Assembly (NCBI GenBank): GCA_950295325.1
Contig: OX485807.1
Coordinates: 50,250,440-50,314,439 of the forward strand
Reading direction: 5' to 3'
From: Polytrichum commune
Lineage: Eukaryota; Streptophyta; Polytrichopsida; Polytrichales; Polytrichaceae
DNA length: 64,000 nt
The notes under the pieces are model-generated. The model was not told the origin of the DNA, made no database searches, and worked only from the letters and a program-made list of their open reading frames with translations. Below, one piece after another: positions 1 to 18,088 of this stretch. The number at the start of each line of letters is the position of its first letter. Positions within the stretch are counted from its first letter, which is position 1. Made by a program: the position numbers and the translations under genes.

Positions 1-1240
1 TCCGAGAGGGTAATCACTTGGGCTCTAGGACCAGATATTGTTTCAATGTGGGTGGTTACATGTTTGGTTGGGTAGGCTCTCGGCTAGTTAGTGTAGAGTC
101 TTAGTTAGAGGGGCCAGATTTTGGATGAATGTGAAAGCCTTCAAGTTCTGTTAGTTTAGGCTCTCGGCTAGGTAGTCTAAGGTCTTAGTTAGAGGGGCCA
201 TATTTTGGATGAATGTGAAAGCCTTCAAGTTCTGTTAGTTTAGGCTCTCGGCTAGTTAGTGTAGAGTCTTAGTTAGAGGGGCCAGATTTTGGATGAATGT
301 GAAAGCCTTCAAGTTCTGTTAGTTTAGGCTCTCGGCTAGCTAGTGTAGAGTCTTAGTTAGAGGGGCCAAATTTTGGATGAATGTGAAAGCCTTCAAGTTC
401 TGTTAGTTTAGGCTCTCGGCTAGGTAGTCTAAGGTCTTAGTTAGAGGGGCCATATTTTGGATGAATGTGAAAGCCTTCAAGTTCTTTTAGTTTAGGCTCT
501 CGGCTAGGTAGTCTAATGTCTTAGTGTAAGGGCTAGTTAGTGTAAGGTCTTAGTTAGAGGGGGCCATATTTTGGATGAATATGAAAGCTTAGAGGTTATG
601 TTTGTTTAGGCTCTCACCTAGTTAGTGCAGGTCTTAGTTATAGGGGGCCATATTTTGGATGAATGTGAATGCTTCAAGGTTATGTTTGTTTGGGCTCTCG
701 GCTAGTTAGTTCAAGGTCTTAGTTATATGGGGCCATATTTTGGATGAATGTGAAAGCTTAGAGGTCATGTTTGTTTAGGCTCTCACCTAGTTAGTGCGGG
801 TCTTAGTTATAGGGGGCCATATTTTGGATGAATGTGAATGCTTCAAGGTTACGTTTGTTTAGGCTCTCGGCTAGTTAGTTCAAGGTCTTAGTTATATGGG
901 GCCATATTTTGGATGAATGTGAAAGCTTAGAGGTCATGTTTGTTTAGGCTCCCGGCTAGTTAGTGAAGGTCTTAGTTATAGGGGGCCATATTTTGGATCA
1001 ATGTGAAAGCTTCAAGGTTATATTTGTTTAGGCTCTCGGCTAGTTAGTTCAAGGTCTTAGTTATAGGGGGCCATATTTTGGATCAATGTGAAAGCTTCAA
1101 GGTTATATTTGTTTAGGCTCTCGGCTAGTTAGTTCAAGGTCTTAGTTATAGGGGGCCATATTTTGGATCAATGTGAAAGCTTCAAGGTTATATTTGTTTA
1201 GGCTCTCGGCTAGTTAGTTCAAGGTCTTAGTTATAGGGGG
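1..1240. repeat. 84-bp tandem satellite array
   Basis: Tandem array of about fourteen units. The first six start exactly 84 bp apart (TAGGCTCT at 73, 157, 241, 325, 409, 493). From about 530 on, the units form a diverged subfamily with GGGGGCCATATTTTGG and a slightly different length. Every unit carries GGCTCTCGGCTAG. No coding frame is conserved. The array is cut by the left edge of the window. Confidence 0.9.
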
Positions 1241-1246
1241 CCATGT

Positions 1247-1444
1247 ATTGGATGAGAGGTTCAATGGCCTTAAGTTGGATTTGGCTTGTGATTGTGAATT
1301 TGTTGGTTTACACTTCAAATCTGATCTTTTGAGGTTAGGCCAGATTTTCAAGTTGTGAGGTTCAATGGCCTTGAGTTGGATTTGGCTTGTGATTGTGAAT
1401 TTGTTGGTTTATACTTCAAATCTGATCTTTTGAGGTTAGGCCAG
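1247..1444. repeat. 101-bp tandem satellite, left part
   Basis: About two units of a 101-bp repeat (GGTTCAATGGCCTTGAGTTGG ... GAGGTTAGGCCAG). The same array resumes at 4294. The two parts were one array until the element at 1445-4293 inserted into it. Confidence 0.85.
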
Positions 1445-3617
1445 TGTCACCAAAAATCCTCCACCCTTCGATTTCGTCCTAGCCCGAGTGGAAAAGTTTA
1501 TAATGACATGTAGAGACTTCTCTCTTTGTAACCCAATATATAATTCCAATCTACCCTTGGAATATACACAACTTGATTAACTCCACACTATGTAGTTTTA
1601 CATTCCTTAACCCCTAAGTGCCCAAGCCTTTCGGAATGCACTTTTCCTAAGAAATATGTGCATGGCTTTAATACAATCCCCAATGGAGGAATTTGTTTTT
1701 TATCCAAAATCTAACCGTATAGATGTTTAAAGAACTTGTTTATTAGTATGCATACCAATTATGAGACCGAGATTGCATAAGAGTTGTGAGGTACAAACAG
1801 GAGAAATGTATACATTCTTTTTTTTGTATGCCGCCCCTCCCCACAATGTTGGTATGATTTGCTCATAAGTGTTTTTGGGAGTTTGAGGTGACATGAACAA
1901 CTCCAACATGTGAAAGAATACGAAAATGTGATTCCAAAGACCCTATATATGCATATAGAGCTATCCCAATCATTTCGCAATCCTCCTTGCAATTCTTGAA
2001 ATGCATTTTCTTTATTTTAACACTTGACGATTTGATATTGCAAATTACTTCACATTGGTAATTGTGAATACTAATATTCAATGGTCAAAAATACGGAATT
2101 TTTTTACTCTTTCCACTACGACACTTTTAAAAAGAAATGAATAATGAGAACTCTTTGGATGTCAAAACAAGTACAATAGTCCAATTAGCAGAAACATTGA
2201 AGAAATAGTAAAGCACTTTCTCCACCCATTCCCTACATCACGGACACATATGCCTTTCCGATCCTCTCCAAAATCGAATATTTATTCTTTTTGGTTAAAA
2301 ATGCCTCAATCCAAAAGTTGCCCTTCCATACTGTCCGCCAGAAAAATTTACGCGGTCAAAGGAATTTTACCTGCCCACACACAAACGAGCCGAAATTTTT
2401 GATCAACCATATATGGTTGCTCGGACACTTAGGGGTTAATGTTGGGCAAGGTTACATCCTTAGCCTTTTCTAATGTCCACCCGGCCGCTTTGGCCACGCA
2501 TGCCTTCAAAGATATCCCTCTTGTGAAGCGAGTCCTTGCCGTCGACTCCACATTACTACATGAGTTCTCGCTTATTGATTCCATGAATTACACAAATTTA
2601 AGTATTGATAAATACTTGTCACTTATTGTAGTTTTCTCCTCACGCTTCAACCACAATATTGGTTTAATGAACTAATGGTTATCCCTAATGGAACCAAACA
2701 AACTTCCTTTGTCCCCCTAGACTTTACTAGCTAAACCTCACTTATACTACTAATTTAACTTATTTCTCGCTAATCCTCGTCACAAATTTATAAATTTATA
2801 TCACCCCTAAATAACCAATATCAATACCATTCCAATTAAATTAGTCTCCCGGTCTCAGTCCCGGCAGGTTGGGCGTAAATCAACGTTGTTTGCTGCCTCA
2901 GTAACCCGTCAGAGCCCGTCAATTACAGAGGCCGTTTTGACGGGCTGCCCTCCAAAGAACTTCAGAATAGGATAGCGTTCTCTGACTTACTCAGAATGAC
3001 CTGAAATTTTATCTGTAACTAGGGAAACAAAGCAAAAAACATCTCACCAATTTATGAGCCTATCCCATTTTCTGTCTGACAGTTATGACCATTTTAATGT
3101 GTCAGTCTACCCAGATTTCAGAATGTCATAACTTCCTTCCATAGGCTCCAAAGAACTTCAAATTTTGGGAGAAATCACAAAAACTAATTTTTTATAACCC
3201 CCTGAAATTTCAAACTATTTTCATTTTCTGCCAAAACGTTATGGCTTTTTTAGTGTGCAACTCTTGAAAACACTTCAGAATGATATATCTCCTTCTCATC
3301 TGATCGGAATGACTTGAAATTTGTACCACAACTAGGAAACCTAAGAACAAAGCATCCCTCAAAATTTCATGCGTTTCCAAGCCTTTGTCCAGGAGTTATG
3401 CCCATTTCAGCTCAAAAATGTAGGCAAAGTTCAGAATGTCATAACTGCTGCTCTAGTACTCTAAACATCCTCAGATTTTGACCATGTTCATATAAACAAG
3501 TTGTTTACTAACCCTCTAAATTTCAACGAAGTATCTTCTTTTGCTCGGAAGTTATGCCCCTTACAACCTAGACTACTCAAAAGACCCTCTCATTTACCAA
3601 CTCGTGTTCCGGCAACG

Positions 3618-4293
3618 TGTCACCAAAAGTACTCCACCCTTCGATTTCGTCCTAGCCCGAGTGGAATAATTATGATGACACTTAGAAAATACATATACCC
3701 AAGAAATATGAACTCAAGTACTACAACTGGAAGCCATAAAATATCTTAAAATTATTCACACCAAAACTAATTCTAACAAGAGGTCAAGCCCTCTTCAAGG
3801 CCAACTAGCCTTGGCTCTCCAACTAAAAACTAAGCACACACACATGTGCTCCAATCTTGCTTCCAACACACCCACACTTATAACACGTGGGGTGCCTTGG
3901 AGCACGAAGGGAAGAGAGGATGAGTGAGGGAAGAATGAGGTATTATATAGTGAGTTTAAGGGGGTGAGCACCCTCAAGGCTCACGATAAGCCCTCGAAAT
4001 CTCCTCCTACTTTATAGGCTCTCATCTTATCTCCTAAGTCTTCCTCCCTCAGATGATCAACAAAGATCCTAATTCAAACATTTAACTAACCTTGGCTTTC
4101 TACCTACCACACTTTACCAAGTTATGTCTTCATACTACTTAAATCCACTCCACACAAGTCTAGTGCTTCAAACTTAGCTTTCTTCAAGCTTCACTCTTTT
4201 TATATTTTTGTGAATAATCATAAATCAACAAAACACCACTTGTAATGTTTTATAAGTGTTAACAACACATGTGGGCATCAATTTGGGCTCACA
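3618..4293 (-). repeat. LTR of the inserted element, homologous to 20185-21070
   Basis: On the minus strand it runs from TGTGAGCCCAAA to TTTTGGTGACA. The stretch 3740-4140 is an inverted copy of about 20720-21070, including CCTTGGAGCACA-type sequence, a TATA region and the GAGCCTTGAGGGTGCTCACC segment. Confidence 0.7.
3941..3949 (-). promoter_or_regulatory. TATA box of minus-strand LTR
   Basis: On the minus strand the sequence reads CTCACTATATAATACC, a TATA box inside the LTR. The same position in the inverted copy is ACTATATAAT at 20884. The conservation supports an LTR promoter. Confidence 0.5.
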
Positions 4294-5166
4294 GCCAGAT
4301 TTTCAACTTGTGAGGTTCAATGGCCTTGAATTGGATTTGGCTTATGATTGTGAATGTGTTGGTTTAGACTTCAAATCTGATCTTTTGAGGTTAGGCCAGA
4401 TTTTCAACTTGTGAGGTTTATTGTTCTTGAGCTGGATTTGGCTTGTGATTGTGAATTTGTTGGTTTATACTTCAAATCTGATCTTTTGAGGTTAGGCCAG
4501 ATTTTCAACTTGTGAGGTTTATTGTTCTTGAGTTGGATTTGGCTTGTGATTGTGAATTTGTTGGTTTACACTTCAAATCTGATCTTTTGAGGTTAGGCTA
4601 GATTTTCAACTTGTAATGTTCAATGGCCTTGAGTTGGATTTGGCTTGTGATTGTGAATTTGTTGGTTTACACTTCAAATATGATCTTTTGAGGTTAGGCC
4701 AAATTTTCAAGTTGTGAGGTTCAATGGCCTTGAGTTGGATTTGGCTTGTGATTGTGAATTTGTTGGTTTATACTTCAAATCTGATCTTTTGAGGTTAGGC
4801 CAGATTTTCAAGTTGTGAGGTTCAATGGCCTTGAGTTGGATTTGGCTTGTGATTGTGAATGTGTTGGTTTAGACTTCAAATCTGATCTTTTGAGGTTAGG
4901 CCAGATTTTCAACTTGTGAGGTTCATTGTTCTTGAGTTGGATTTGGCTTGTGATTGTCAATTTGTTGGTTTATACTTCAAATATGATCTTTTGAGGTTAG
5001 GCCAGATTTTCAAGTTGTGAGGTTCAATGGCCTTGAGTTGGATTTGGCTTGTGATTGTGAATTTGTTGGTTTACACTTCAAATCTGATATTTTGAGGTTA
5101 GGCCAGATTTTCAACTTGTGAGGTTCATTGTTCTTGAGTTGGATTTGGCTTGTGATGGTGAATTCC
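4294..5166. repeat. 101-bp tandem satellite, right part
   Basis: About nine units with exact 101-bp spacing (GCCAGATTTTCAA at 4294, 4395, 4496 and so on). Units alternate between GGTTCAATGGCCTTGAG and GGTTTATTGTTCTTGAG variants. The array ends within a few bases of a possible exon at 5168, so it may lie in an intron. Confidence 0.9.
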
Positions 5167-5167
5167 A

Positions 5168-5435
5168 GAGATATGGGATTCCAGAGTTGTGTTTGCCACG
5201 CGAGCATAACCTAGTTAAATTGTTTAAATTGAACTTCATGTTGTTCTTAGAGAGCCGGCACGTCACCTCGAGAATTTCGTAGAGGATTCTGAGGTCGGAG
5301 TTGGGGGATTTGTCTTTGCGGTCTTTGGCTAAGCTAAGGACTGAACTGGAAGCCTGTTATGGTGCGGAGAATATCTATGGCATGTTCTTTGGATCATTTT
5401 ACCCATATTGGACATGCCCGGCAGATAGGGTGTAG
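5168..5435 (+). pseudogene. Terminal exon of unknown gene, one in-frame stop
   Basis: The preceding ...TTCCAG is a plausible splice acceptor. The frame then runs RYGIPELCLPREHNLVKLF, followed by MLFLESRHVTSRIS, one TAG, and ELEACYGAENIYGMFFGSF, ending at a TAG at 5433. The same frame is kept on both sides of the internal stop, and the composition looks like real protein. An AATAAA signal follows at about 5518. The family is not recognised. It could be the end of a retroelement or host gene disabled by one stop. Confidence 0.35.
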
Positions 5436-5509
5436 ATGGCCTTAAACTATAGTATATAGCTACTTGAACTAACTATCCATTTTTGTAAGTCTTTAGGTTG
5501 GCTACATTT

Positions 5510-5695
5510 TGTTGACTAATAAAATATTTTGTATATTTCGAACAAATTTTGGTTATTAAGTCCACGGGAATGGGGTGCCTTTCCAACATATTGAATTCAA
5601 ACTATCTCTAATTCCACGGAAATAGGCACTGCTTCTCCGAAAATTTCCCAATATAATCTAAATTCTCCGCTCTACGCTCACATACTTGAGTTTCC
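5510..5695. repeat. Conserved post-satellite flank, copy 1
   Basis: The sequence from AATAAAATATTTTGT through CCACGGGAATGGGGT and GGAAATAGGCACTGCTTCTCC to CGCTCTACGCTCACATA recurs at about 16600-16900, behind a different satellite. Confidence 0.8.
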
Positions 5696-7138
5696 CGGCG
5701 GGCTGGCGGACTTCCGGGTGAAGAGGGTGGTGTGAGGTAAAGTAGGCAACCCCCTTGGTTTCCAAGCCAAAGGGTTGAGTCGTGCTTACTTTTCGTTCAC
5801 AAATACATTTTATAAGATTCGAAAGTCTTTTTGAGAGAAAAGATAATAGTTAGCCTCTTAAGTATCCGATTAGTCCAACTTAAGCTTAGTTACCTTGGAA
5901 TAGGCAACCTAGACCCTTTTAATGTAGCTAAACTACTAAAAATCAATGCAAAGAATACCAAATGCTAATAAAACTTCTAACTAATCAAAAAGGAATATGA
6001 AGAAAGAAGAAATATATGAGCTGCCTCACGGAAACTCTCATAACTTTTGGACAGAGTTTTAGTTTTACGCAATATTAGGATACAAGGATAGATAACTTCA
6101 AGACCTACCTAGAAATATAAAACTTGTAGAAAATGGCCCAACCAGCTAACCGGGGTGAAGCTTCAAAGTCAGCAGTGCTACATCAGGAGCTGTCTCACGG
6201 AAACACTTATAACTTCTAGACAGAATTTTAGATGTGAATGAAACTAATTTTGTTGGAAAGATAATTTTATTATCTATCTATGCATATAAAATAAATTGAA
6301 ATCAGATTTATTGGTAAGACGTGGCAAGCCTCTAAAGTACGCTGTCCTATATGATTCAAGTTGCTAACTAATTTTCATTCTATATAAACTAAGGTTGCTT
6401 CACTAACAAGTAAAGAAGAGGTGAGGAATGTGAATGTCATACAAAGAGGAAAATACTAATAAAACTATAAGAGAATATTTTATTTGAAAGATAGAAACAC
6501 TTACTCCTTCTCAAGGAGTACAACCACTCCCCCTACTAACTACTAACTACTAACTACTAACTACTAATAGAAGTCGGGGACACCTAAGTTGGCGAGATAG
6601 ATAACTAAGCGTCGAGAAGGTTGAGGCTCTAAGGGCCCGAGACCGATGAAGTGGAATAGTGGTAATGCTTGATGGAGTTTCGACGCCTCTTAAATAGGTG
6701 GTCGAGGTAGACACTCCGTGGTATTCCGTCTTGCTACGTCTACCCTCGCATTGGATCTGTTTAGGCTTTGTTGATCTTTCGCATTGGATCCGCTTAGATC
6801 CATTTTGACTTAGTAGTGCCCAAAGACACTTGTCAACTTGGATCTTCTCTCGTCGAAGCGAATCGGCTTGGTCAAACGTGCATCCATCTAGTCCACGTTG
6901 TTTTGCTCCACTCCTTTAACCCGTTGTCGCGTAGTCACTTTGGATTTAGCCCTTAGCTAAGTCAATCTTAGCCTTACCAACCACTTAAATCTTGCCCTAG
7001 CTAAGTCAATCCTCACATAGTCCTATAATATTCCGTTAATGCTTGTCCTATTAGGATTTACTTACTAGGCTAGTTTCTAACTCCCAACTTACCTAACCGA
7101 CCTCATATTTACTATCTAAAGTCTATTTACCACTAGTA
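5696..7138. other. No gene recognised
   Basis: Non-coding stretch. Two related segments (about 6020-6060 and 6180-6240) share CTGYCTCACGGAAAC and CAGAATTTTAG-like text, typical of non-coding retroelement interiors. A short CTAACTA run lies near 6535-6565. No sustained reading frame was found. Confidence 0.4.
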
Positions 7139-7921
7139 TTAGGTTAATTCGATAAAGGAATAAAAAAAAACCTTCACAGGTGGCGCTTCCGGAACTATGG
7201 GGTCGCTGGAGGTCTCCGTCTCGAGGTCTCCGACCTCTGGATGGAGCTTGTATGTGACTTCATCCGCCGCGATCGTTAGCATGTCCTCCTCCTCGGCCGT
7301 GATGCAGTCGAAGTGCTGGTAGAGGTGTAGGATAAAGGGGGAAAGGAAGGAGGGTTTCCGGCCTATGTGGGGGAGGGCCTGTCCTACGACCTCGTGGATT
7401 ATCAAACCCCAATTTACAGGCCGAACTCCGGACATAGCTCCAAACAGGGTGTTAGCCATGGTCAGGCTAATCCGCTTGGGCTTGTCCGGGTTAAGGATGG
7501 GTAGGAGAAATTCTAACACTCTCCTTTCTCTCAGGTTCCGGCAGTTCCCGGGATGGAATCCGTCCTTCGGATCCGCGTCTCCCCGGAACTTTCCGGCAAA
7601 CAGTCCAGCCCGTTGGCCGGCCCACCCCTCTGTAATTCCCCGAGGGAACCCGTATACTCTATTCCGGATGTCCGGAGTCCAGCTGTCCGGATCTCCCCTT
7701 TTTGTCCCCCACCACTGATTCCCTCTCTCAAATTTAAACTCTCGGAGGGTATCTTCCGCTCGGAGGTTCCAGGGTTTGGTGAGCAATCCCTCACACCCCA
7801 TGACCCGGAGATCCTCCGCTAGCTCATGCAACTCCCCATCCTCCCTCGGAATTGCAGGGATGAGGGCTTTGAGCGGAATGGGAATGGGGTCCCTCCGATC
7901 CTCCTCCCGTGCTTCCGGCAT
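7139..7921 (-). CDS. Hypothetical protein, transposon-like first exon
   Basis: An open frame of 260 codons starts with MPEAREEDRRDPIPIPLKAL. The C-terminal third has a compact globular look, with segments RRVLEFLLPILNPDKPKRIS, ANTLFGAMSGVRPVNWGLII and FLSPFILHLYQHFDCITAEE. I do not recognise a named domain. The style (a charged N-terminus, then one folded segment) resembles gag-like or transposon-associated plant ORFs, which is inference only. It is strikingly GC-rich and CCGG-rich compared with its surroundings. Near the end the sequence reads CCTGTGAAG followed by GTTTTTTTTT, which could be a splice donor. If so, the last few codons are intron and further exons lie below 7139, where I see none. 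Confidence 0.45.
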   Translation of the reverse strand: MPEAREEDRRDPIPIPLKALIPAIPREDGELHELAEDLRVMGCEGLLTKPWNLRAEDTLREFKFERGNQWWGTKRGDPDSWTPDIRNRVYGFPRGITEGWAGQRAGLFAGKFRGDADPKDGFHPGNCRNLRERRVLEFLLPILNPDKPKRISLTMANTLFGAMSGVRPVNWGLIIHEVVGQALPHIGRKPSFLSPFILHLYQHFDCITAEEEDMLTIAADEVTYKLHPEVGDLETETSSDPIVPEAPPVKVFFYSFIELT

Positions 7922-8197
7922 TTTCTCTCTTTGCTCACCCTCTGTCCGCTACGGATTATCTCTTCTCTCCTCTCCGGATTCCCTCTCGTCCGTTTAATTG
8001 CGATGGAGTTCCGGCAAACCAACTGCCGGTAACTCGAAATTGCAGAGTCCCAACAATCCAACTGCTGGCGGCTCGAAAAACAACCTCACCACTCGTTCAC
8101 TCAACAAAACTTTCTTCTTGCGAAAAAGTGGGGAGAAGAAGGAAGGTCCCTTAAATCTCCTTCCCCTCTCTTCCCTCCCATGCTGACCGTTCGGGTT

Positions 8198-8228
8198 AAC
8201 GGAAAACGGTTGCCAACCGTTTTCCGTT
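8198..8228. repeat. 31-bp near-perfect hairpin
   Basis: Arms AACGGAAAACGGTTG and CAACCGTTTTCCGTT pair perfectly around one C. It lies upstream of the minus-strand frame at 7921, possibly in its leader or promoter. Confidence 0.8.
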
Positions 8229-8338
8229 GGGGGGCCAACGGTCTTCCCTCCAATCGTCACCAGTCCGTTCCAACTGCCATTCTCCACCGGCTCTTCCCCT
8301 TCCGGACCGTTGGAAGAACGTGGCGTAATTGTTACTTA

Positions 8339-8359
8339 GTCCGGACCAGTGGTCCGGAC
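8339..8359. repeat. 21-bp palindrome
   Basis: GTCCGGACCA and TGGTCCGGAC flank a single G. Several more GTCCGGACC-type words lie nearby (8298-8306, 8393-8400). Confidence 0.8.
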
Positions 8360-8660
8360 CATCATCCATTGGTCCCCCCCTAATCCAATTCGCCGGACCG
8401 GCGGTAGTACCTCTTTTTATCATTTTTTAAAGTACTAGGCGGACCTAGAACGTCCTATTTCCTAGTGCACTTAATTTATCCTAATAACCCCTATGGTTCT
8501 CACAAAAGCAGGGTAGAATACGGAAAGCGGATCCATATTTCCGTATTTCCGTCTTTTTGTAGAATACTGGCCTCCCACAGCCAACATCAGATTTAATGTA
8601 TATGTAGGTTCAGGGTAGCTATATATCAAAATTCAAAATGTTTGAATTTGTAAAAATCGG

Positions 8661-8684
8661 GTAGCTCTCGGATTCGAGAGCTAC
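8661..8684. repeat. Palindrome of the CTCTCGG...CCGAGAG class
   Basis: Arms GTAGCTCTCG and CGAGAGCTAC flank GATT. It resembles the palindromes of the 13.56-13.91 kb array. A weaker relative (CTCTTGGATCCGAGAG) lies at about 8819. Confidence 0.75.
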
Positions 8685-8956
8685 CTCAATTTTTCAAAAA
8701 TGGATGGATGTGCAAATTCTGGTGTAGCTCTCGGCCCATTTCAAAAGGCTAGAATGTGTATGTTCAGGTGTGGCTCTAGGCCCATTTCAGAAGGCTAGGG
8801 AGTGTAGGTTCAGGTGTGGCTCTTGGATCCGAGAGGCTGGCTATCGGCCTAGTCTTTGCTTATGCCTTCCTATTCAATATCCTCTTTTTGTCTGTTTTCT
8901 TACACCGTCATGTTTTGCAGATTGACCATCATTATTCCAGCTTCATCGTCACAGAT

Positions 8957-11606
8957 ATGACGATAGAAAAACTCCAAAAGGTGGCAACCACCCATGTCGA
9001 TGCCTCTTTCAAAGCCAAGTGGCTTCAGTGGTGGAATTCTTCCACCGACGTCAAAATCAAAAACCAATTCCCCTCTGTTCTTCCTCTCCGTGAGAAAGTC
9101 CTTGACGACTGGCTAAACAAAGTTTCTTTCTGGGCACAGGTATATCTTCAAGAATTGTTTCTTTAGTTTGTTTCTTTTATTCTTTGGCATTTCTAACTAT
9201 TGTTCTCTCTTAACATAGTTGGAGAAGGGGGTTGAGGCCGAAATCGCATCGTTTGAAAACGAGTGTTCCGTTGACATTGATTGGATTTTTGCGGAGATTT
9301 TGCAACCGTCCAATTATGTTGAGTATAGGAGGCTCATTTTGTGGGACAAGGCTTTCCGTGTGTATTTTGACGACAAAGGCGAATTGAAATTTGTTAAAGG
9401 CCTTGACCTCACGGAGTTTGAGGAAGGTCCGATAGCAATCAAACGCGTTGCTTACCGGTAATTGTTGAAGTTCTCTTTTTGTACATTTCGTTTCATTCCC
9501 TTTTTGTTTCCATATTCTTATTTGATGTTCTTCATTTTCCAGATACATTCATCGTGAGCTCGTTGTGAAGAATGTTTTGCCTCCTTCTTCATTGCCTGCT
9601 TTCCTCTTTGATTGGGTCGATGTCGACTCCAATTTCTGTGTCTATACTGCCATGCAAGTTACAAAGTTTCCACACGTGCACTTGAAAGCTGGTGGTTGGT
9701 ACTTGGATTGCTCCCGTGGATTTGTGCCCGATGAGGAAGAATCCCTTTACAGCAGCCTAGTAAGCTCTGCGCCTGACGTGATTGGAGGAAGAGCCGGAAG
9801 AGCATATGCCCGCTCCTCAGTCCATTGAGAAGGATGTTGCGCCCGTCAAAGGTAAGGGCAAGGGTAGGAAACTTGTCCCCCTTGCCTCTTCTCAAGTTTC
9901 TACTCGGTCTTTCACAAAGGCCTCAGTTCAACGCACTGTTGCTCCAGCCACCACCGTTGTTGGAAGTCCAAGCGCCACTTCTTCTGCCCCCCACCCCAAT
10001 CCTCCTCCTGTTCCTTCTCATAGCGGCGCAACCATCCCATCTGTGCCTCGCAAGAGGAAGGCAGTTGCACCGGATACATCAGCAACTTCCTCGGAGAGGT
10101 CAACTAGCCTTTCTTTGATTGAGAATGTGGACATGGTAGAGCTCATTGAAGATCTTATGAAGACGAAGGTTCCCCCTCCCGCCTACCGCCGCATACAAGA
10201 TTTCCTAACCAAGGTTTGTATGTCGTTTTGTTTTTTTGTCTTTCATTCATTGTAATTTGACATTTATTTTGTTTCTTGATTTTCTTTGCAATTTTTCCTT
10301 TCAGGTTGGAGCGGGCCGTACTCGTCCCAACACCAAGCCTAAGGCTCATACGGGCATTGATCTTCTCTTCGCAGATGTGCCCGAGAACCTCCGTGTGCCG
10401 GGCATTTCGTCCTCATCCTCCGATATTCCTCAATGGAATAAGAGGTCTTCCACTTACTTTGAGGTTTTGTTTGCCTTTGCAACTGCCAATCTCCATGATG
10501 ATGGTGTCATCGTCTTTGCATACGCAGCGGATCCTGATATCTCTAGAGAGATTCACAACTGGGCACATACGGAGGATTTTTATGTTGCCGAAGACTGGTT
10601 TGGAATGAATGACCTCGACCTTCAATCGCCTACTAATCCTAGAGAATTGGTAATTCAATTTCGCCTTCATCCTTTGTGATTTTTAGTTATTTCTTTATTT
10701 TGTTATTTATTTAATGAACCGATTCATCATCTTGCAGACTCGCAAGTTCTTTATCAAAGTACTTGTGCGCAACGTATCGGTTTTGAATGTCCGGACTTCG
10801 GACTTCAAGGATATGGGTTATAATCTCAAACGAGATGGTTGGCTCAATAGCTTCACAGATGTGAAGAACCAATCCATAAGGGATGACGGGGTGCCTTGGA
10901 GAGGAGCTCGTGAAAAACGTCCCGAGTTCTTCTCCATCCTTTTCTCCGCCCTCACGGACAAGGACGATATTATATTTGATTGGCAATGTGGCGTTGGTTC
11001 GATCTTAACCTTCCTTGTTTTTCCTGCCCTTGTTTTGTTATGTTTTAACTTATTTCATATTTTGTTTATGTCACGTGCATTTTCTTATCCTCACCTATTG
11101 GCATTGTCTTGTTCTAGGAGGTTCCATCATTGCATGTCGCTTCATTCAACGCCATATTGTGGCGCTTAACTCGGATGTTGATGTCTTCAAGTCCATCCTC
11201 CTTCCCATTTGTGAGCCTGAGCAAGAACACACCTCTCAACATACCGCCCCTCGACGAGGCTCAGTATTTGCTCCTCCTCCCCGGAAGATGGCCAAACGCA
11301 ATTTCGATTTGCTTTGTGAGTAAGTTCATTCTTGTATTCAACTTTTTTTGTATTTTCATCTCTTCGTCTAGGACATTTCGACTTTAGCTCATTTGTTTAT
11401 CTTCCTTCATGTGCAGAGTTCAAAATGATAGCCCCATCCGCGTTCTTAATGCGGACATGTTCTTTACGCCTTCGACTACGTTTGAGCTTCCTTCCTATGC
11501 TGCTCAGCTTGCCAATCTCTTGGCGGAAGCACCCTCCCCACCTCTTAGTCGCACCCGCCCCTTTAACAAACTAGTATTGGATTTCCTAGACATAGAGGCC
11601 GAGTAG
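8957..11606 (+). CDS. Eight-exon gene with DNA amino-methyltransferase-like C-terminus
   Basis: Exons: 8921 (ATG at 8957)-9139, 9219-9457, 9543-9759, 9821-10213, 10305-10649, 10738-10996, 11118-11319, 11417-11606. All have GT-AG borders. The joined frame is open to the final TAG, about 675 aa from the ATG. The intron at 9760-9820 is only 61 bp, but it exactly restores the frame. The first two thirds are unrecognised: a tryptophan-rich N-terminal domain, then a Pro/Ser/Ala linker with basic stretches KGKGKGRK and PRKRKA (possible nuclear localisation). The C-terminal part follows beta-class N4/N6 DNA methyltransferase order. IDLLFADVPENL occupies the motif IV (DPPY) place. A domain with LHDDGVIVFAY follows. 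Then RPEFFSILFSALT precedes DIIFDWQCGVGG, in the motif I (DPFxGSG) place. Both catalytic motifs are altered, so activity is doubtful. The family assignment is inference from motif order. Exon 1 has a good acceptor (TTTTGCAG before 8921), so an upstream exon may be missing. Confidence 0.55.
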
Positions 11607-12869
11607 GGTGAGGATAGTGATAGACATGCTAGTCCACATTCTTGACTACGCCTTGTTATGATGACACATTTCCCATCCCATATGTATTATCTTTTTTCAG
11701 TTCCTCTTAATATTATTTGTTGAATTTCCATTCACCTTTTGCAAACCCCTGTCAACTTCTTATTCATCTTATGTTGGCGTTGAATTCCATTTTCTGAAAA
11801 TGTTTGGGCTCACGGCTGTACTCTTTGGTGGTTGAGTTGAAATGTTTCAAATTCGTGTGTTGGACCAGGAATGTTGTCGCGCACCTCTCCATGAGGAGTG
11901 CCCAAAACACCATGGGCACAAGGGGGACCCCGGAGTGACACCCGGGACTTGTGGCGCCGTTGGTGAGAGGGCCCAAGTGATCCTAGTGTGGGTTAGGGCC
12001 CCGGGCGTTGGGAACGCCTCCCACCCACGGAGACTAGGAGGCACAAGGGTAAGGCCATGAGCTATGCGTAGCTCATGGCGTGGTGATTCTAGAATGCTCA
12101 AGAACACCTCAATCGGAGGTGTGAGCTAGGAGTTATGGCCATTTGAGTGGAGCGCTGTCCCGGGACAGCGCCCTGGTTCAGCAGTGCCTGGGAGTGACTC
12201 CCGGGACTGCCAAGGTTCAAAGAGGCATAACGTCCTCATAACTTGCCCAAATGAGGCAAGTGAGCAGTCCATCAGCATCTACGTGAAACGTAGATGAAGA
12301 TGAAGTGGTTGGTTGCTAGCATCGGACATCATACAAGGAAGTTATGATGGTCTGAAGCTGCTAGAGGCTTCTTAGCTCAGCGGCTAAGGGAGAATGTCCA
12401 CTTGGCCCCAACTCTTGGTAGAGAGACAAGAGGTTGGTTGACGGTGGGGTAGGGGCCCCGTGTAAAGTCCTAGAGGCTTATATGGGTGAGGTGGTGTGGC
12501 CTCACCCACCCGAGGCCGAACGGCACGGCCTCCATGGGCTTTGGCCCATTGTGAGGCCATAGTTGCCTAGTATGGTTCGGGTTGTTGTAGTGTTGCTCCG
12601 GCAATGCGATGATCAACATAAGATGGGACTTTCATGGATGGAAGTCCACATCGAAGAAATGGGTTACCGATTAAGGGGTGAGTCCCGAAAGCAAAGTAGG
12701 AGGGTTGGTTCCCCTCCTTTGAATTATATGGTCCGGGGTAAGAGGAGCTAACCATTAGCATGGCGGTATGCGAAGGGTTAGCGCTCGTAACCTTTGCTAG
12801 AAAGGAAAATTGGCAAGATTGCTAAGGGGGCTAGCAAGGGTTGCGACAAATGTATAGTGTAGAGGGTTC
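11607..12869. other. No gene recognised; retroelement-like non-coding DNA
   Basis: GC-richer block with ACACCCGGGACTTGTGG, ACTCCCGGGACTGCC and similar CCCGGGA words, and text such as GAGTTATGGCCATTT. This is typical of plant LTR-element interiors. No sustained reading frame was found. A 20-bp perfect palindrome lies at 12152-12171. Confidence 0.4.
12152..12171. repeat. 20-bp perfect palindrome
   Basis: GCGCTGTCCCGGGACAGCGC is identical to its reverse complement. Confidence 0.85.
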
Positions 12870-13165
12870 GGCCACAAATTTTGTTTCGCTAAGTGGTTTC
12901 GGTTGGACAAGTTCGATCTCAAGTTAAGGGGTTGGATCTCAAGCTTAGGGGGTTGGAGGTTTGGGGTTCGGTTTAATCACAAAAGTTTTGGTTGGCTAAG
13001 TGGTTTCGGTTGGACAAGTTCAATCTCAAGTTAAGGGGTTGGATCTCAAGTTTAGGGTGTTGGGGGTTGGGGGTTGGGGGTTCAGTATATTTACAAAACA
13101 ATTGTTTGGCTAAGTTGTGTCGGTTGGACGGGTTGGATCTCAAGTTAAGGGGTTGGGGGTAGGCA
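12870..13165. repeat. Tandem repeat, about 100-bp units
   Basis: About three units contain GGCTAAGTGGTTTCGGTTGG, CAATCTCAAGTTAAGGGG and GGTTGGATCTCAAG. No conserved frame. Confidence 0.75.
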
Positions 13166-13558
13166 TTAGATTTTTGCATGTGGCATTATAGTCATCATCC
13201 CATAGATTGCATCCTGATCATAATATTTATTCTTAGCTATGATCCCCCAATCAAGCGGGGATTCACCTCATCAATATAGTGCAATCGGGACAAATATCAT
13301 CCCAATGATGGTCAAATCCCCCAAGCCCTTTTCACATTCATATACTTCCAAGCCTATGCGCTACATATCTAATGTTGGTGGGTGGCAAGTGTTTGTTGGG
13401 AAGCTCTCTTCGGCCATTGAAGAAGGTTGGATGTTGTATCTTGAAGGTTCGGCCCCTCCCCCCCCCCCCCCCTACATTTGCATGTTGTTTTTTATTTCAC
13501 AATGTGCCTACACTAAGGGCTGTGATCGGAAATGCTAGTTGGATCCTGTGGGTAGGCT

Positions 13559-13908
13559 AAGGTCTCGGATCCGAGACCTTAGAGAATTCGGCCATTGAAC
13601 CAGGTTGTGAAGTTTTTTGGGTGAAACCTGTGGGTGGGTAATTAAGGTCTCGGATCCGAGACCTTACCCGATTCGGCCACTGGACCAGGTTGTGAAGTAT
13701 TTTGGGTGAATCCTGTGGGTGGGTAAGGTCTCGGATCCGAGACCTTGGAGGATTCGGCTATTGGACCAGGTTGTGAAGTGTTTTGGGTGAGTCCTGTGGG
13801 TGGGTAAGGTCTCGGATCCGAGACCTTAGAGGATTCAGCCATTGGACCAGGTTGTGAATTTTTTTGGATGAATCCTGTTTGTAGGTAAGGTCTCGGATCC
13901 GAGACCTT
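13559..13908. repeat. Array of perfect palindromes, 81-bp spacing
   Basis: Five copies of a 22-bp perfect palindrome with core GGTCTCGGATCCGAGACC start at 13559, 13644, 13725, 13806 and 13887, so spacing is 85 then 81, 81, 81 bp. The linker is conserved (CATTGGACCAGGTTGTGAAG, TTTTGGGTGAATCCTGTGGG). This is a satellite whose every unit can form a hairpin. Confidence 0.9.
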
Positions 13909-13914
13909 AGAGGT

Positions 13915-16585
13915 TGAATGTGAGGGTTTTGAATGTAGGTGTTTAATACTTGAAATCTGCTATTGTGAGGGTAGGTTCTTTATACTTGACATCTGGTATT
14001 GTGAGGGTAGGTGCTTTATACTTGAAATCTTGTATTGTGAGGGTTTAGGCCAGAATTAGGACTTGTGAGGTTGAATGTTTGTGTTTCAATGTGAGTGCTT
14101 TATATTTGAAATCAGGTTTTGTGAGGGTATGTGCTTAATACTTGAATTCTGGTATTGTGAGGGTTTAGGCCAGAATTAGGACTTGTGAGGTTGAATGTTT
14201 GTTTTTCAATGTGAGTGCTTTATACTTGAAATCTGGATTTGTGAGGGTAGGTGCTTAATACTTGGATTCTGGTATTGTAAGGGTTTAGGCCATAATTTAG
14301 ACTTGTGAGGTTGAATGTTTGTGTTTCAATGTCAGTGCTTTATACTTGAAATCAGGTTTTGTGAGGGTAGGTGCTTAATACTTGAATTCTGGTATTGTGA
14401 GGGTTTAGGCCAGAATTAGGACTTGTGAGTTTGAATGTTTGTTTTTCAATGTGAGTGCTCTATACTTGAAATCTGGCATTGTGAGGGTAGGTGCTTTATA
14501 CTTGAATTCTGGTAGTGTGAGGGTTTAGGCCAGAATTTAGACTTGTGAGTTTGAATGTTTGTTTTTCAATGTGAGTGCTCTATACTTGAAATCTGGCATT
14601 GTGAGGGTAGGTGCTTTATACTTGAATTCTGGTATTGTGAGGGTTTAGGCCAGAATTAGGACTTGTGAGGTTGAATGTTAGTGTTTCAATGTGAGTGCTT
14701 TATACTTGACATCTGGTATTGTGAGGGTTTAGGCCAGAATTTAGACTTGTGAGTTTGAATGTTTGTTTTTCAATGTGAGTGCTCTATACTTGAAATCTGG
14801 TATTGTGAGGGTAGGTGCTTTATACTTGAAATCTGGATTTGTGAGGGTAGGTGCTTTATTCTTGAATTCTAATATTGTAAGGGTTTAGGCCAGAATTTAA
14901 ACTTGTGAGGTTTAATGTTTGTGTTTCAATGTGAGTGCTTTATACTTGAAATCTGGTATTGTGAGGGTAGGTTCCTTATACTTGAAATCTGGATTTGTGA
15001 GGGTAGGTGCTTTAAACTTGAATTTTGGTATGTATGTTTAGGCCAGAATTTAAACTTGTGAGGTTGAATGTTTGTTTTTCAATGTGAGTGCTTTATACTT
15101 GAAATCTGGTATTGTGAGGGTAGGTTCCTTATACTTGAAATCTGGATTTGTGAGGGTGGGTGCTTTAAACTTGGATTCTGGTATGTATGTTTAGGCCAGA
15201 ATTAGGACTTGTGAGGTTGAATGTTTGTTTTTCAATGTGAGTGCTTTACACTTGAAATCTGGTATTGTGAGGGTAGGTTTTTTATACTTGAAATCTGGAT
15301 TTGTGAGGGTAGGTGCTTTATACTTGAATTCTGGTATGTATGTTTAGGCCAGAATTTAGACTTGTGAGGTTGAATGTTAGTGTTTCAATGTGAGTGCTTT
15401 ATACTTGAAATCTGGTATTGTGAGGGTAGGTTCTTTATACTTGAAATCTGGATTTGTGAGTGTAGGTGCTTTATACTTGAATTCTGGTATGTATGTTTAG
15501 GCGAGAATTTAGACTTGTGAGGTTGAATGTTTGTTTTTCAATGTGAGTGCTTTATACTTGAAATCTGGTATTGTGAGGGTAGGTTCTTTATACTTGAAAT
15601 CTGGATTTGTGAGTGTAGGTGCTTTATACTTGAATTCTGGTATGTATGTTTAGGCGAGAATTTAGACTTGTGAGGTTGAATGTTTGTTTTTCAATGTGAG
15701 TGCTTTATACTTGAAATCTGGTATTGTGAGGGTAGGTGCTTTATACTTGAAATCTGGATTTGTGAGGGTAGGTGCTTTATACTTGAATTCTGGTATGTAT
15801 GTTTAGGCGAGAATTTAGACTTGTGAGGTTGAATGTTTGTTTTTCAATGTGAGTGCTTTATACTTGAAATCTGGTATTGTGAGGGTAGGTTCTTTATACT
15901 TGAAATCTGGATTTGTGAGGGTAGGTGCTTTATACTTGAATTCTGGTATGTATGTTTAGGCCAGAATTAGGACTTGTGAGGTTGAATGTTTGTTTTTCAA
16001 TGTGAGTGCTTTACACTTGAAATCTGGTATTGTGAGGGTAGGTTTTTTATACTTGAAATCTGGATTTGTGAGGGTAGGTGCTTTATACTTGAATTCTGGT
16101 ATGTATGTTTAGGCCAGAATTTAGACTTGTGAGGTTGAATGTTAGTGTTTCAATGTGAGTGCTTTATACTTGAAATCTGGTATTGTGAGGGTAGGTGCTT
16201 TATACTTGAAATCTGGATTTGTGAGGGTAGGTGCTTTATACTTGAATTCTGGTATGTATGTTTAGGCGAGAATTTAGACTTGTGAGGTTGAATGTTTGTT
16301 TTTCAATGTGAGTGCTTTATACTTGAAATCTGGTATTGTGAGGGTAGGTTCTTTATACTTGAAATCTGGATTTGTGAGTGTAGGTGCTTTATACTTGAAT
16401 TCTGGTATGTATGTTTAGGCGAGAATTTAGACTTGTGAGGTTGAATGTTTGTTTTTCAATGTGAGTGCTTTATACTTGAAATCTGGTATTGTGAGGGTAG
16501 GTGCTTTATACTTGAATTCTGGTATGTATGTTTAGGCCAGAATTAGGACTTGTGAGGTTGAATGTTTGTGTTTTCAATGTGGGTT
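13915..16585. repeat. Higher-order satellite, 120-bp then 153-bp units
   Basis: Unit text: GGGTTTAGGCCAGAATT ... GACTTGTGAGGTTGAATG ... CTTTATACTTGAAATCTGG. The period is exactly 120 bp from 14041 to 14641. It changes to 153 bp (GTATGTTT at 15491, 15644, 15797) by adding one about 33-bp subrepeat (GTAGGTTCTTTATACTTGAAA). No gene is present. Confidence 0.9.
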
Positions 16586-16594
16586 TATGATATG

Positions 16595-16905
16595 AATGAC
16601 CAATAAAATATTTTGTTTATGGTATTTTGATTTCAATTTGGTGACGTCAGCCCTAATTTAATATGATACATTAGAAACATATACTATAAGATGTTTGATA
16701 ACAAATGCAATCTTGCACGCCTATAGGATCCGTTGGTTTCTTGAACAATTATGGGTTATTATGTCCACGGGAATGGGGTACCTTTCCAAATATAGAATTT
16801 AAACTATCTCTAATTCCACGGAAATAGGCACTGCTTCTCCTAAAATTACCCAACAAAATCTAAATTTTCCGCTCTCCACTCTCCGCTCTACGCTCACATA
16901 GCTAA
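16595..16905. repeat. Conserved post-satellite flank, copy 2
   Basis: AATAAAATATTTTGT at about 16600 and CCACGGGAATGGGGT through CGCTCTACGCTCACATA at 16755-16900 match 5510-5695. Copy 2 has extra sequence (16620-16740) between the two blocks. Confidence 0.8.
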
Positions 16906-18088
16906 ATCCCCCCAGCTCAACTTAAGACTAGGATAACTTATGCCTAAATCTCATTTATAATCCAAAGTTAATCCTATCTTAAACTTACTCTTAATGACCC
17001 TAACTTCTCAAATTCCCCTCTAATCAACTGATCATAAGTGATTTCTCATCACTTCAGTTGATTGAGATTCTCTCTTAAATTACATTCTTCCCAATTGTAC
17101 AACTAACAGCCTACACTCAAAATCCAACTATAATCTCATGTGGCTGAACTATAATCCTCTTCTCTCTGTATTACCTCCCACAGGTTTCAACAATAATCAT
17201 TTCCTTTTATGTGCTGGCCTTTGGCCTTACACCTTCCTTTTAGTGCCTATCCCAGGCCTCAACTATATTCAGTGGGTTCTCTCACAATCTGATACTTGGC
17301 CTTACGGCTTCTTACAGCCTATAGTGAATCTCAACTATAGTCCAGAGTTACACTACAATCAGCCTAATGCTCGACTGGCCCGATTTCTCCCTCTCACAGG
17401 TAATCGAAGGGTCACTCAACAAGGCTGCCTATTTCCTCAGTCAATAGTTCGACTTTCCTTCACTCTCAATCGCTCAGGACTCTACTCCTCAACGATACCA
17501 GCCCATAGTTGCACTCTGATGCACCCCGTGGGTCGTTCCCTTGCAAATTAGCTCAAGAAGACTCACGGTGAAACATCACGTAAATTTATATTCGCTTGAG
17601 AACTACCGTGCCTCATTAATATGTTCGGTCTCGAATTAATAATCCCTCTCTTCTCCTTATGATATGAATATAATTATTGGAATGGACACAATCTCATTAT
17701 CTTAATTCTTACTCTCAATGTAAGGCATCATTGATAATAAGAACCATTAGATTTTAAGAAAGCTTCAAGAGGTGTAACAATATCCTTGATAATAATATAT
17801 TTTTCAATAAGTTATATAAATCCTTAAGGTTCGTAGTTCATAAACATCAATCATACAAATGATAGTAAACTTGTAATGATGAAGAAGATCCAATATTCTT
17901 GAGTCTTCCTTTTTAAGCTCAAGTGCTACTACTTATGATATTGTAACTTGACATGTATGCATATAGTAGTTATAATTTCATGAATACATCATTGATTGTT
18001 TTGCAATGTCACGTTTAACTTCAAAGTGTTTTAATGACAAGAATAATTATAACTCTCTTGAGGTTTATTCAAGAGTAAGAACTTCTCT
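16906..18088. other. No gene recognised
   Basis: AT-rich. The stretch 17138-17551 is open for 137 codons, but its composition (repeated GGCCTTAC..., TCAACTATA words) looks like repeat text, and no homologous family is recognised. Confidence 0.35.

Follow-up and report, generated by a model that had tools for sequence, protein, structure and literature searches.

A 64,000-nucleotide stretch of the Polytrichum commune genome (in the following, the window) contains, at positions 8957-11606 of the plus strand, spliceable coding exons that a preliminary description had taken for a rare plant host gene encoding a DNA methyltransferase-like protein. Comparison with related sequences of the same genome identified the feature as one of many dispersed copies of a transposon gene, and this copy is 5'-truncated and frameshifted; the assignment to a host gene therefore had to be given up. 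Our favored interpretation, to which we assign a probability of about 0.5, is that the gene is an accessory gene of a Mutator-like transposon lineage and that the window contains a decayed copy of it. The protein would bind palindromes that are specific to its element family and counteract silencing, and its methyltransferase fold would be non-catalytic.

The gene belongs to a highly repetitive family. A search with the protein of exons 5-8 yielded at least 258 matches in the 407.8-Mb genome, a count that is based on 121 scored of 2179 first-look candidates, and the matches listed were spread over seven chromosome-size contigs. The large contigs measure 42-78 Mb, and the genome contains four matches to the LEAFY family, three of which are strong and one of which has a DNA-binding exon that looks moss-like by eye; a moss, perhaps of the Polytrichum group (n = 7), would be in accord with these features. 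A large, uncounted share of the listed matches was located at about 42-58 Mb of contig C4, possibly a non-recombining or pericentromeric region. When up to one mismatch was allowed, a 21-base sequence from the 3' end of the element was found 54 times on one strand and 53 times on the other, and its reversed control was not found. We abandoned the idea that the element has an identical repeat at each end with this 21-mer as one arm, because no pair in opposite orientation within 50 kb was seen by eye among 100 listed of the 107 matches.

The gene copy in the window

Seven exons were assigned to the window copy, all of them on the plus strand. The first surviving exon (8922-9139) encodes a part of the middle domain (WLQWWN...LDDWL..FWAQ), is flanked by an acceptor-like site ending at 8921 and a donor at 9140, and is homologous to internal exons of relatives. 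The second exon (9219-9457) also belongs to the middle domain and exhibited 57-95% protein identity to the corresponding pieces in other copies. The third (9543-10213) comprises a GGWYLD block (9691-9708) and a basic linker with a PRKRK cluster (10046-10060), in agreement with the nuclear-type linker that had been described. The methyltransferase-like domain with the motif IV region ADVPEN (10371-10388) is encoded in the next exon (10305-10649), for which the identity to other genomic copies reached 87% among the matches listed. It is followed by an exon with a VPWRG block (10891-10905) and the start of motif I (10738-10996; FDWQCGV at 10975-10995), an exon with the remainder of motif I and the next strand (11118-11319; VALNSD at 11159-11176), and the last exon, which includes the stop codon (11417-11606). 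The 3' end of the element was placed at 16597-16917 of the plus strand. It is about 94% identical to L016 over 16597-16900, and the last bases ...GCTCACATAGCTAAATCCCC were positioned by eye.

Originally, a clean frame of eight exons starting with the ATG at 8957 had been proposed. The exons do exist, but the frame is broken. Exons 3 and 4 of the first reading are separated by a gap of merely 28 nt (9760-9787) with splice-like ends, and all four relatives that aligned there (Y, L003, L011, and L005) contain five additional bases; two of the six relatives compared, L014 and L018, gave no alignment at this site. Therefore, an intron of 28 nt was rejected, and the window copy was read as carrying a frameshifting deletion of 5 nt at about 9781, which leaves seven exons. 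The ATG at 8957 is probably internal and not the gene start, as judged from the acceptor-like site ending at 8921, from homology to other copies that reaches back to 8866-8921, upstream of this ATG, and from the further upstream exons in relatives. The latter also led to the rejection of MTIEKL as the start of the protein. The additional N-terminal region that had been postulated was recovered in relatives, and its exons were not found in the window, where tblastn with two versions of the region gave no match at E values of up to 0.1.

A host gene, namely a diverged DN4MT-like or METTL-like plant methyltransferase, would fit the multi-exon frame, the beta-class fold, and the nuclear-type linker. 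However, the many dispersed copies, the broken frame of this copy, and the terminal repeats and target duplications that flank members of a related family render this explanation hardly tenable.

A methyltransferase fold that has lost the motif IV aromatic residue

The window protein itself did not match any Pfam family at E values of up to 1, and the fold was recognized via relatives. Searching the genome with the DNA-methylase model of Pfam retrieved the diverged relatives L019 and L020, which contain open frames of 577 codons. The L019 frame matched PF01555 (N6_N4_Mtase) above the cut-off, with an E value of 1.1e-7 and over positions 1-216 of 221, and the window protein is tied to this match through relatives with about 23-57% identity. 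A profile of 23 rows, four of which were window exons, was compared with the PDB and matched M1.HpyAVI with an E value of 1.3e-5, followed by CcrM (0.086) and then two unrelated chains. Used as a single sequence, the L019 frame gave PDB matches with E values of 0.31 and 0.39, both of them to methyltransferases. The AlphaFold2 model of L019 had a mean predicted local distance difference test score (pLDDT) of 37; with this low-confidence model, ranks 1-46 of a Foldseek search of the PDB (best E value 1.6e-6) were all occupied by DNA methyltransferases, some of which we take to belong to this class. The C-terminal part also matched methyltransferases in PHROGs (best E value 3e-5). In contrast, the 24 phage records retrieved by tblastn with the methyltransferase part (E values from 0.06 to 0.9) were not used as evidence of kinship; three of them were inspected and contained short methyltransferase genes without an annotated ParB part. 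As indicated by the profiles of relatives and by the predicted structure, a METHYLTRANSFERASE fold of the beta class is present in the family, as had been suggested from the window sequence. Both motif IV and motif I aligned in the profile search of a relative.

In active N6/N4 enzymes of the beta class, motif IV follows the consensus (D/S/N)PP(Y/W/F). This consensus was found neither in the window nor in the related groups. Among the window copy and L002-L012 (n = 12), motif IV reads DVPEN in nine cases, including the window, DVSEN in two, and NVPEN in one. The respective sequences are DIPEN in L014, L015, L016, and L017, DIPKN in L013, DILEN in L018, DIPDG in all five members of the group L030-L034, and QFPDG in L035 and L036. 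Within the L035 family, 22 copies including L035 and L036 were compared, and the motif was LQFPDGL in 16, LQFPDGF in three, LQFPNGL in one, and FQCPDGL in one, with one copy not covered. Since the aromatic residue is missing across copies and groups, its loss is a trait of the family rather than the decay of one copy. The degenerate motif IV reported for the window thus recurs in nearly all relatives, the sole exception seen being L019. In L019 (2169-2183), the motif reads DIPYG, with a tyrosine at the position at which L030-L034 uniformly have D.

In motif I, the glycines are retained, and most groups have an acidic residue C-terminal to the next strand (NSD in the window). Motif I is altered in two of the three broad groups (CSTGAS, HCGVGGS). 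With the glycines and the acidic residue kept and the motif IV aromatic lost, binding of S-adenosylmethionine appears possible and methyl transfer unlikely.

Alternatively, the protein might be an active methyltransferase in at least some families, producing N4-methylcytosine (4mC) or N6-methyladenine (6mA) and being directed by the ParB-like part to the element that encodes it. The beta-class fold would be in accord with such a writer, as would the retention of the motif I glycines and the acidic residue in several groups, the DIPYG of L019, and the algal transposon proteins with a ParB-like region and a 4mC/6mA methyltransferase, which are suggested in the accessible part of PMC12477816 to bind and modify their own transposon. 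However, the motif IV aromatic residue is replaced in nearly all copies, mostly by D or E, by K in L013, and by N in one copy of the L035 family, and the alterations of motif I also argue against methylation, so that we regard an active writer as unlikely.

The N-terminal region of relatives

The N-terminal region of the relatives starts with the motif I/VPLCR(M/L)xxxPxxRP, which is followed by a helix, a strand, an insertion, and the block F(F/H)(I/V)W(D/E)GNHRxxAW; in L019, GNHR is changed to GNHP. For comparison, the typical blocks of ParB are IPLxxIxxNPxQPR and GERRxRAA. Based on this likeness by eye, at the level of motifs (IPLCRM...MPxxRP...GNHRxxAW), we infer that the region is ParB/sulfiredoxin-like. 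In PHROGs, its best match had an E value of 0.012 and was to a family of unknown function, and a search of viral contigs with the N-terminal alignment gave 39 candidates, none of which was confirmed. The best outside support for the ParB reading comes from the algal transposon proteins, which combine a ParB-like region with a methyltransferase (PMC12477816), and from phage fusions of ParB with N6_N4 domains (PMC12704722), as described in the accessible parts of both articles.

Palindrome arrays associated with the gene

Downstream of the gene, the window contains an 81-85-bp array (13549-13913) with five perfect palindromes around CTCGGATCCGAG, at 13557-13582, 13643-13666, 13725-13746, 13805-13828, and 13886-13909. 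Further tandem arrays with units of 120 and 153 bp follow at 13935-16581. Palindrome-bearing repeats were found in the window and in nine assembled element loci (E14, E15, E16, E18, E19, E20, L035, X36, and Y), and they are family-specific. Three of the sequences were counted in the genome: CTCGGATCCGAG occurred 3285 times (reversed control: 9), TGTGCGTTAACGCACA 694 times (reversed control: 0), and CTCTCGGTTCCGAGAG 955 and 790 times on the two strands (reversed control: 0).

Palindromes of 16 bases with at most one mismatch were quantified and compared with the average over five sequences shuffled within blocks of 200 bases. The numbers were 102 versus 8.0 for E16, 40 versus 8.4 for E18, 39 versus 5.4 for E14, 52 versus 8.6 for E15, 22 versus 7.6 for L035, 31 versus 6.6 for X36, and 27 versus 6.6 for Y. 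Positions 1-17000 of the window contained 20 palindromes versus 6.2 in the shuffles, and a comparison stretch (window 24001-64000) contained 40 versus 23.2. Seven copies of a TTGTGCGCTxGCGCACAA-like unit were seen by eye in E19.

The arrays are associated with the gene. The 50 listed sites of TGTGCGTTAACGCACA in C1:461578-9401794 were grouped by hand into eight clusters, and for seven of these, a listed methyltransferase exon was located at a distance of 3-8 kb, with both its side and its strand as expected. Likewise, all seven methyltransferase exons listed in this region have an upstream palindrome, in one case as a single exact site. The gene of Y, which is a 96% relative of the window copy, is split by an array at 3330-5405: the ParB-like exons (1970-2753) precede this array, and the remainder of the gene (from 7928) comes after it. 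A further array follows downstream of the gene, and in the window, the downstream array is the only one seen. In X36, a second palindrome of the type GTTTGGGTCGAxCGACCCAAAC occurs both in an intron-sized gap of a transposase-like gene and ahead of the accessory gene, so that the arrays occupy a presumed transposase intron and the region between the two genes.

This arrangement also bears on a possible role in transposition. The TNPA protein of En/Spm acts with subterminal motifs, and the protein under study might in similar fashion bind the arrays to build a transposition complex or to mark the ends of the element. In accord with such a function, repeated palindromes adjoin the gene at about 3 kb from the 3' end, both in the window and in Y, and the complete copy X36 has the gene beside the transposase-like gene. 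However, the X36 arrays are internal and not subterminal, and we judge a transposition factor to be improbable.

Element structure in a related family

A search with the C-terminal exon led to a young related family, the L035/L036 family. In a search with an exon of the family itself, at least 57 matches covered 126 or more of 128 amino acids at an identity of 90% or higher, and 47 of the 57 were free of stop codons (150 scored of 1347 candidates). Three copies with identical stretches of 128 amino acids were present among the matches listed. In a subgroup of this family, represented by rows with open frames of 70 amino acids, the C-terminal exon is split at many places in the genome into a frame of 70 and often one of 122 amino acids, apparently a single lesion that was spread by transposition.

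Two copies of this family were followed over their full length, and each of them has terminal inverted repeats and a target duplication of 10 bp. Within X36 (C1:63975600-63993500), the element extends from 4411 to 16137 (11,727 bp) and is flanked by the duplications CTGCCTACAC at 4401 and 16138. The L035 element (507-9087) is flanked by GTGTGTTACA at 497 and 9088. Both elements begin with GAGGGAAGCTATCTTATGAGCG and finish in a similar inverted ...CATAAGATAGCACTCCCC. Helitron and long interspersed nuclear element readings, which had only been considered, were dropped once the target duplications appeared.

The minus strand of X36 carries a gene with a SWIM motif (CxC...CxH), which was read as two exons (9284-7059 and 6683-5319). 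By eye, it resembles a Mutator-type transposase, and Pfam yielded SWIM only, with E values of 0.07-0.08 and thus below the cut-off, the value for this gene being 0.076. In L035, only the SWIM part of this gene is retained. The accessory gene with the methyltransferase fold is encoded on the plus strand of X36, divergently from the transposase-like gene. The 3' ends of the window group, the E19 family, and the L035 family have a GTGAGCG block and a terminal G/C run in common, which we take as common descent of the three.

At the E19 locus (L025+L019), and also in E20, a kinase-like gene (GRGSYGVVWK, HCDLSFTN, GDWG; about 6599-7760 in E19) is located upstream of the accessory gene. Its joined exons matched Pfam Pkinase with an E value of 5.9e-4, below the cut-off, and tblastn did not detect it in E14, E15, E16, E18, the window, L013, L017, X36, L035, or Y.

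A proposed role in countering silencing

The intact protein would have a ParB/sulfiredoxin-like region at its N-terminus, followed by a middle domain, a basic linker, and, towards the C-terminus, a methyltransferase fold of the beta class without the motif IV aromatic residue. The anatomy of the element, i.e. an accessory gene and element-specific arrays in intron-sized gaps and between genes, parallels that of the VANC system, the component parts being different, and therefore we propose palindrome binding and protection from silencing. The ParB-like and middle regions would bind the palindromes of the protein's own element family, and the protein would gather on the arrays or spread from them across regulatory DNA. 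It would thereby keep host silencing away, as VANC does for VANDAL elements, and the methyltransferase fold may be used for binding of DNA or cofactor rather than for catalysis.

A eukaryotic analogue of the parS-ParB system, in which a ParB-like nucleotide-dependent clamp loads at the arrays and spreads and the dead methyltransferase fold serves as a DNA-reading module, seems doubtful. If it were true, a transposon-encoded silencing shield would have arisen from prokaryotic segregation and restriction-modification parts, co-evolving with the palindromes.

Several results weigh against the proposed anti-silencing role within a Mutator-like lineage. The N-terminal region matched no Pfam family at E values of up to 1 and neither ParB nor sulfiredoxin in a PDB profile search. 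Alignment with 80 Spo0J domains by hhalign was not significant (Prob 0.1, E value 0.51), the only aligned block being FFIWDGNHRFFAWKN versus YDIVAGERRFRAAKL. The AlphaFold2 model of the region was poor (pLDDT 42) and gave no fold match. The tyrosine in motif IV of L019 leaves catalysis possible in some copies. Palindromes were barely more frequent than in the shuffles in E19 (15 versus 5.8) and E20 (14 versus 8.6), so that the arrays are weak in number at these loci, and E20 is no better than the comparison stretch. One TGTGCGTTAACGCACA cluster (461578-462635) has no listed methyltransferase exon nearby. The transposase-like gene lacks a match to the Pfam domain of Mutator-like elements (MULE) at E values of up to 1. 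Target duplications were seen only in the L035/L036 family and not in the window's own family, of which no complete copy was seen and the 5' end was not found.

Evidence for selection on the gene belongs to the same side, as the substitution patterns point to weak constraint and are no proof of function; weak constraint is expected where copies mostly decay after insertion. Between L035 and L036, six synonymous and ten nonsynonymous differences were counted in the N-terminal region (ratio 0.43), eight and ten in the methyltransferase exons (0.33), and 19 and 15 in the transposase-like exon (0.22), whereas the middle stretch, with one synonymous and seven nonsynonymous differences (1.85), weighs against the proposed role. 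The ratios for E19-family pairs were 0.46, 0.61, and 1.06, the last of which is likewise unfavorable, and those for L013/L014 and L016/L017 were 0.39 and 0.68. Across 22 copies, the first domain exon had 29 synonymous and 65 nonsynonymous or stop changes (omega about 0.59, p 0.02) and the second had 34 and 87 (omega about 0.70, p 0.08); 20 of the 22 copies were picked from listed stop-free matches, so that stops are under-represented in these numbers.

The weak selection within families and the many decayed copies would also be expected for a mere passenger, i.e. a gene captured in the manner of Pack-MULEs without benefit to the element. However, several groups that are about 20-57% identical to each other all contain the gene, together with palindromic repeats and with the blocks PWRG, GNHR, and GAS/GGS in common, and the great majority of the near-full matches listed for the young family lack stop codons. 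A passenger gene is thus distinctly improbable.

Relation to known systems

Statements on published systems refer to the accessible parts of the cited articles. Proteins of this class are already known from algal transposons, in which an accessory protein with a ParB-like region and a 4mC/6mA methyltransferase is encoded on the strand opposite the transposase (PMC12477816, which cites Iyer 2011 and Petroll et al. for green and red algae). The gene described here resembles them in being an accessory gene of a DNA transposon opposite the transposase and in its combination of a ParB-like region with a 4mC/6mA-type methyltransferase domain. It differs in its land-plant host, its Mutator-like element (with the 10-bp duplication in the related family), its degenerate motif IV, and its family-specific palindrome arrays; palindrome arrays are not mentioned for the algal proteins in the text available (PMC12477816). 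This likeness was established by description and not by sequence, and the ParB likeness is at the motif level only.

VANC of the Arabidopsis VANDAL elements is the second protein of a Mutator-like element. It removes silencing and binds short motifs, which form tandem repeats in introns and non-coding DNA (PMC5735166). Common features are a non-transposase gene of a Mutator-like element and family-specific tandem arrays of motifs in non-coding DNA or introns; such element-specific arrays in non-coding DNA were also found here, although they are weak by count in E19 and E20. The VANC motifs comprise 8-9 bases in one orientation, whereas the palindromes are about 12-30 bp in length. Anti-silencing was demonstrated for VANC (PMC5735166) and is proposed for the moss protein, and the likeness is one of anatomy.

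Phage fusions of a ParB-CTPase with an N6_N4 methyltransferase likewise unite a ParB-fold region and an N6_N4 domain in one protein of mobile elements (PMC12704722). In contrast, the gene family in P. commune has eukaryotic introns, a linker, and degenerate motifs, and it lacks a significant ParB profile match. Transposable elements with genes derived from DNA methyltransferases are also known from dinoflagellates and charophytes, where 5-methylcytosine methyltransferases reside inside retrotransposons (PMC5890265). That case differs in the class of the enzyme (DNMT), the type of element, and the demonstrated methylation activity.

M1.HpyAVI, M.BceJIV, RsrI, and rotifer N4CMT resemble the present protein in predicted fold and motif order; the catalytic D/S-P-P-Y/W/F consensus is not retained in the present protein.

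The accessible part of PMC6446971 does not mention methyltransferase, moss, Physcomitrella, or bryophyte, and that of PMC13317346 does not mention methyltransferase, moss, bryophyte, or ParB. Within the open-licence literature, as far as its texts were accessible, no report of such proteins in mosses or in Mutator-like elements was found, and the presence of the class in a land-plant Mutator-like element together with a degenerate active site and palindrome arrays was not found described. With this family, the range of transposon-borne ParB-methyltransferase proteins, known from algae, would come to include a land plant and Mutator-like elements, and a further candidate system would stand alongside VANC. 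It also adds candidate binding sites, namely family-specific palindromes with hundreds to thousands of exact copies. Together with the young copies, these sites make the action of the protein on its own element directly testable by binding assays and methylome analysis.

Neighboring features

The window contains the 3' ends of two element copies, at 5696 and at about 16917. Within the window, the second, neighboring copy occupies 73-5696 of the plus strand, with arrays at 73-1444 and 4294-5164 and a 3' end at 5185-5696 that includes the 21-mer at 5676-5696. Its methyltransferase exons are probably those at C5:50248557-50249260, just to the left of the window, and the arrays are attributed to it by position. 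Between the two copies, the minus strand contains an open frame of 269 codons (7139-7948), perhaps belonging to another mobile element, which had no Pfam match at E values of up to 1.

A dispersed repeat of about 975 bp (11875-12848) is nested in the transposon and is absent at this site from the 96% identical copy L002. It recurs within or beside elements in L017 (2651-3623 and 6767-7743), L014 (5754-6753), and L035 (about 7729-8702), with about 93-96% identity between places. The L035 insert is absent from L036, and its assignment to this repeat is based solely on position and on a palindrome common to both.

On contigs C10 and C12, outside the seven large contigs, three strong N6_N4_Mtase matches were found (best E values 1e-25 and 2e-16), which are perhaps bacterial.

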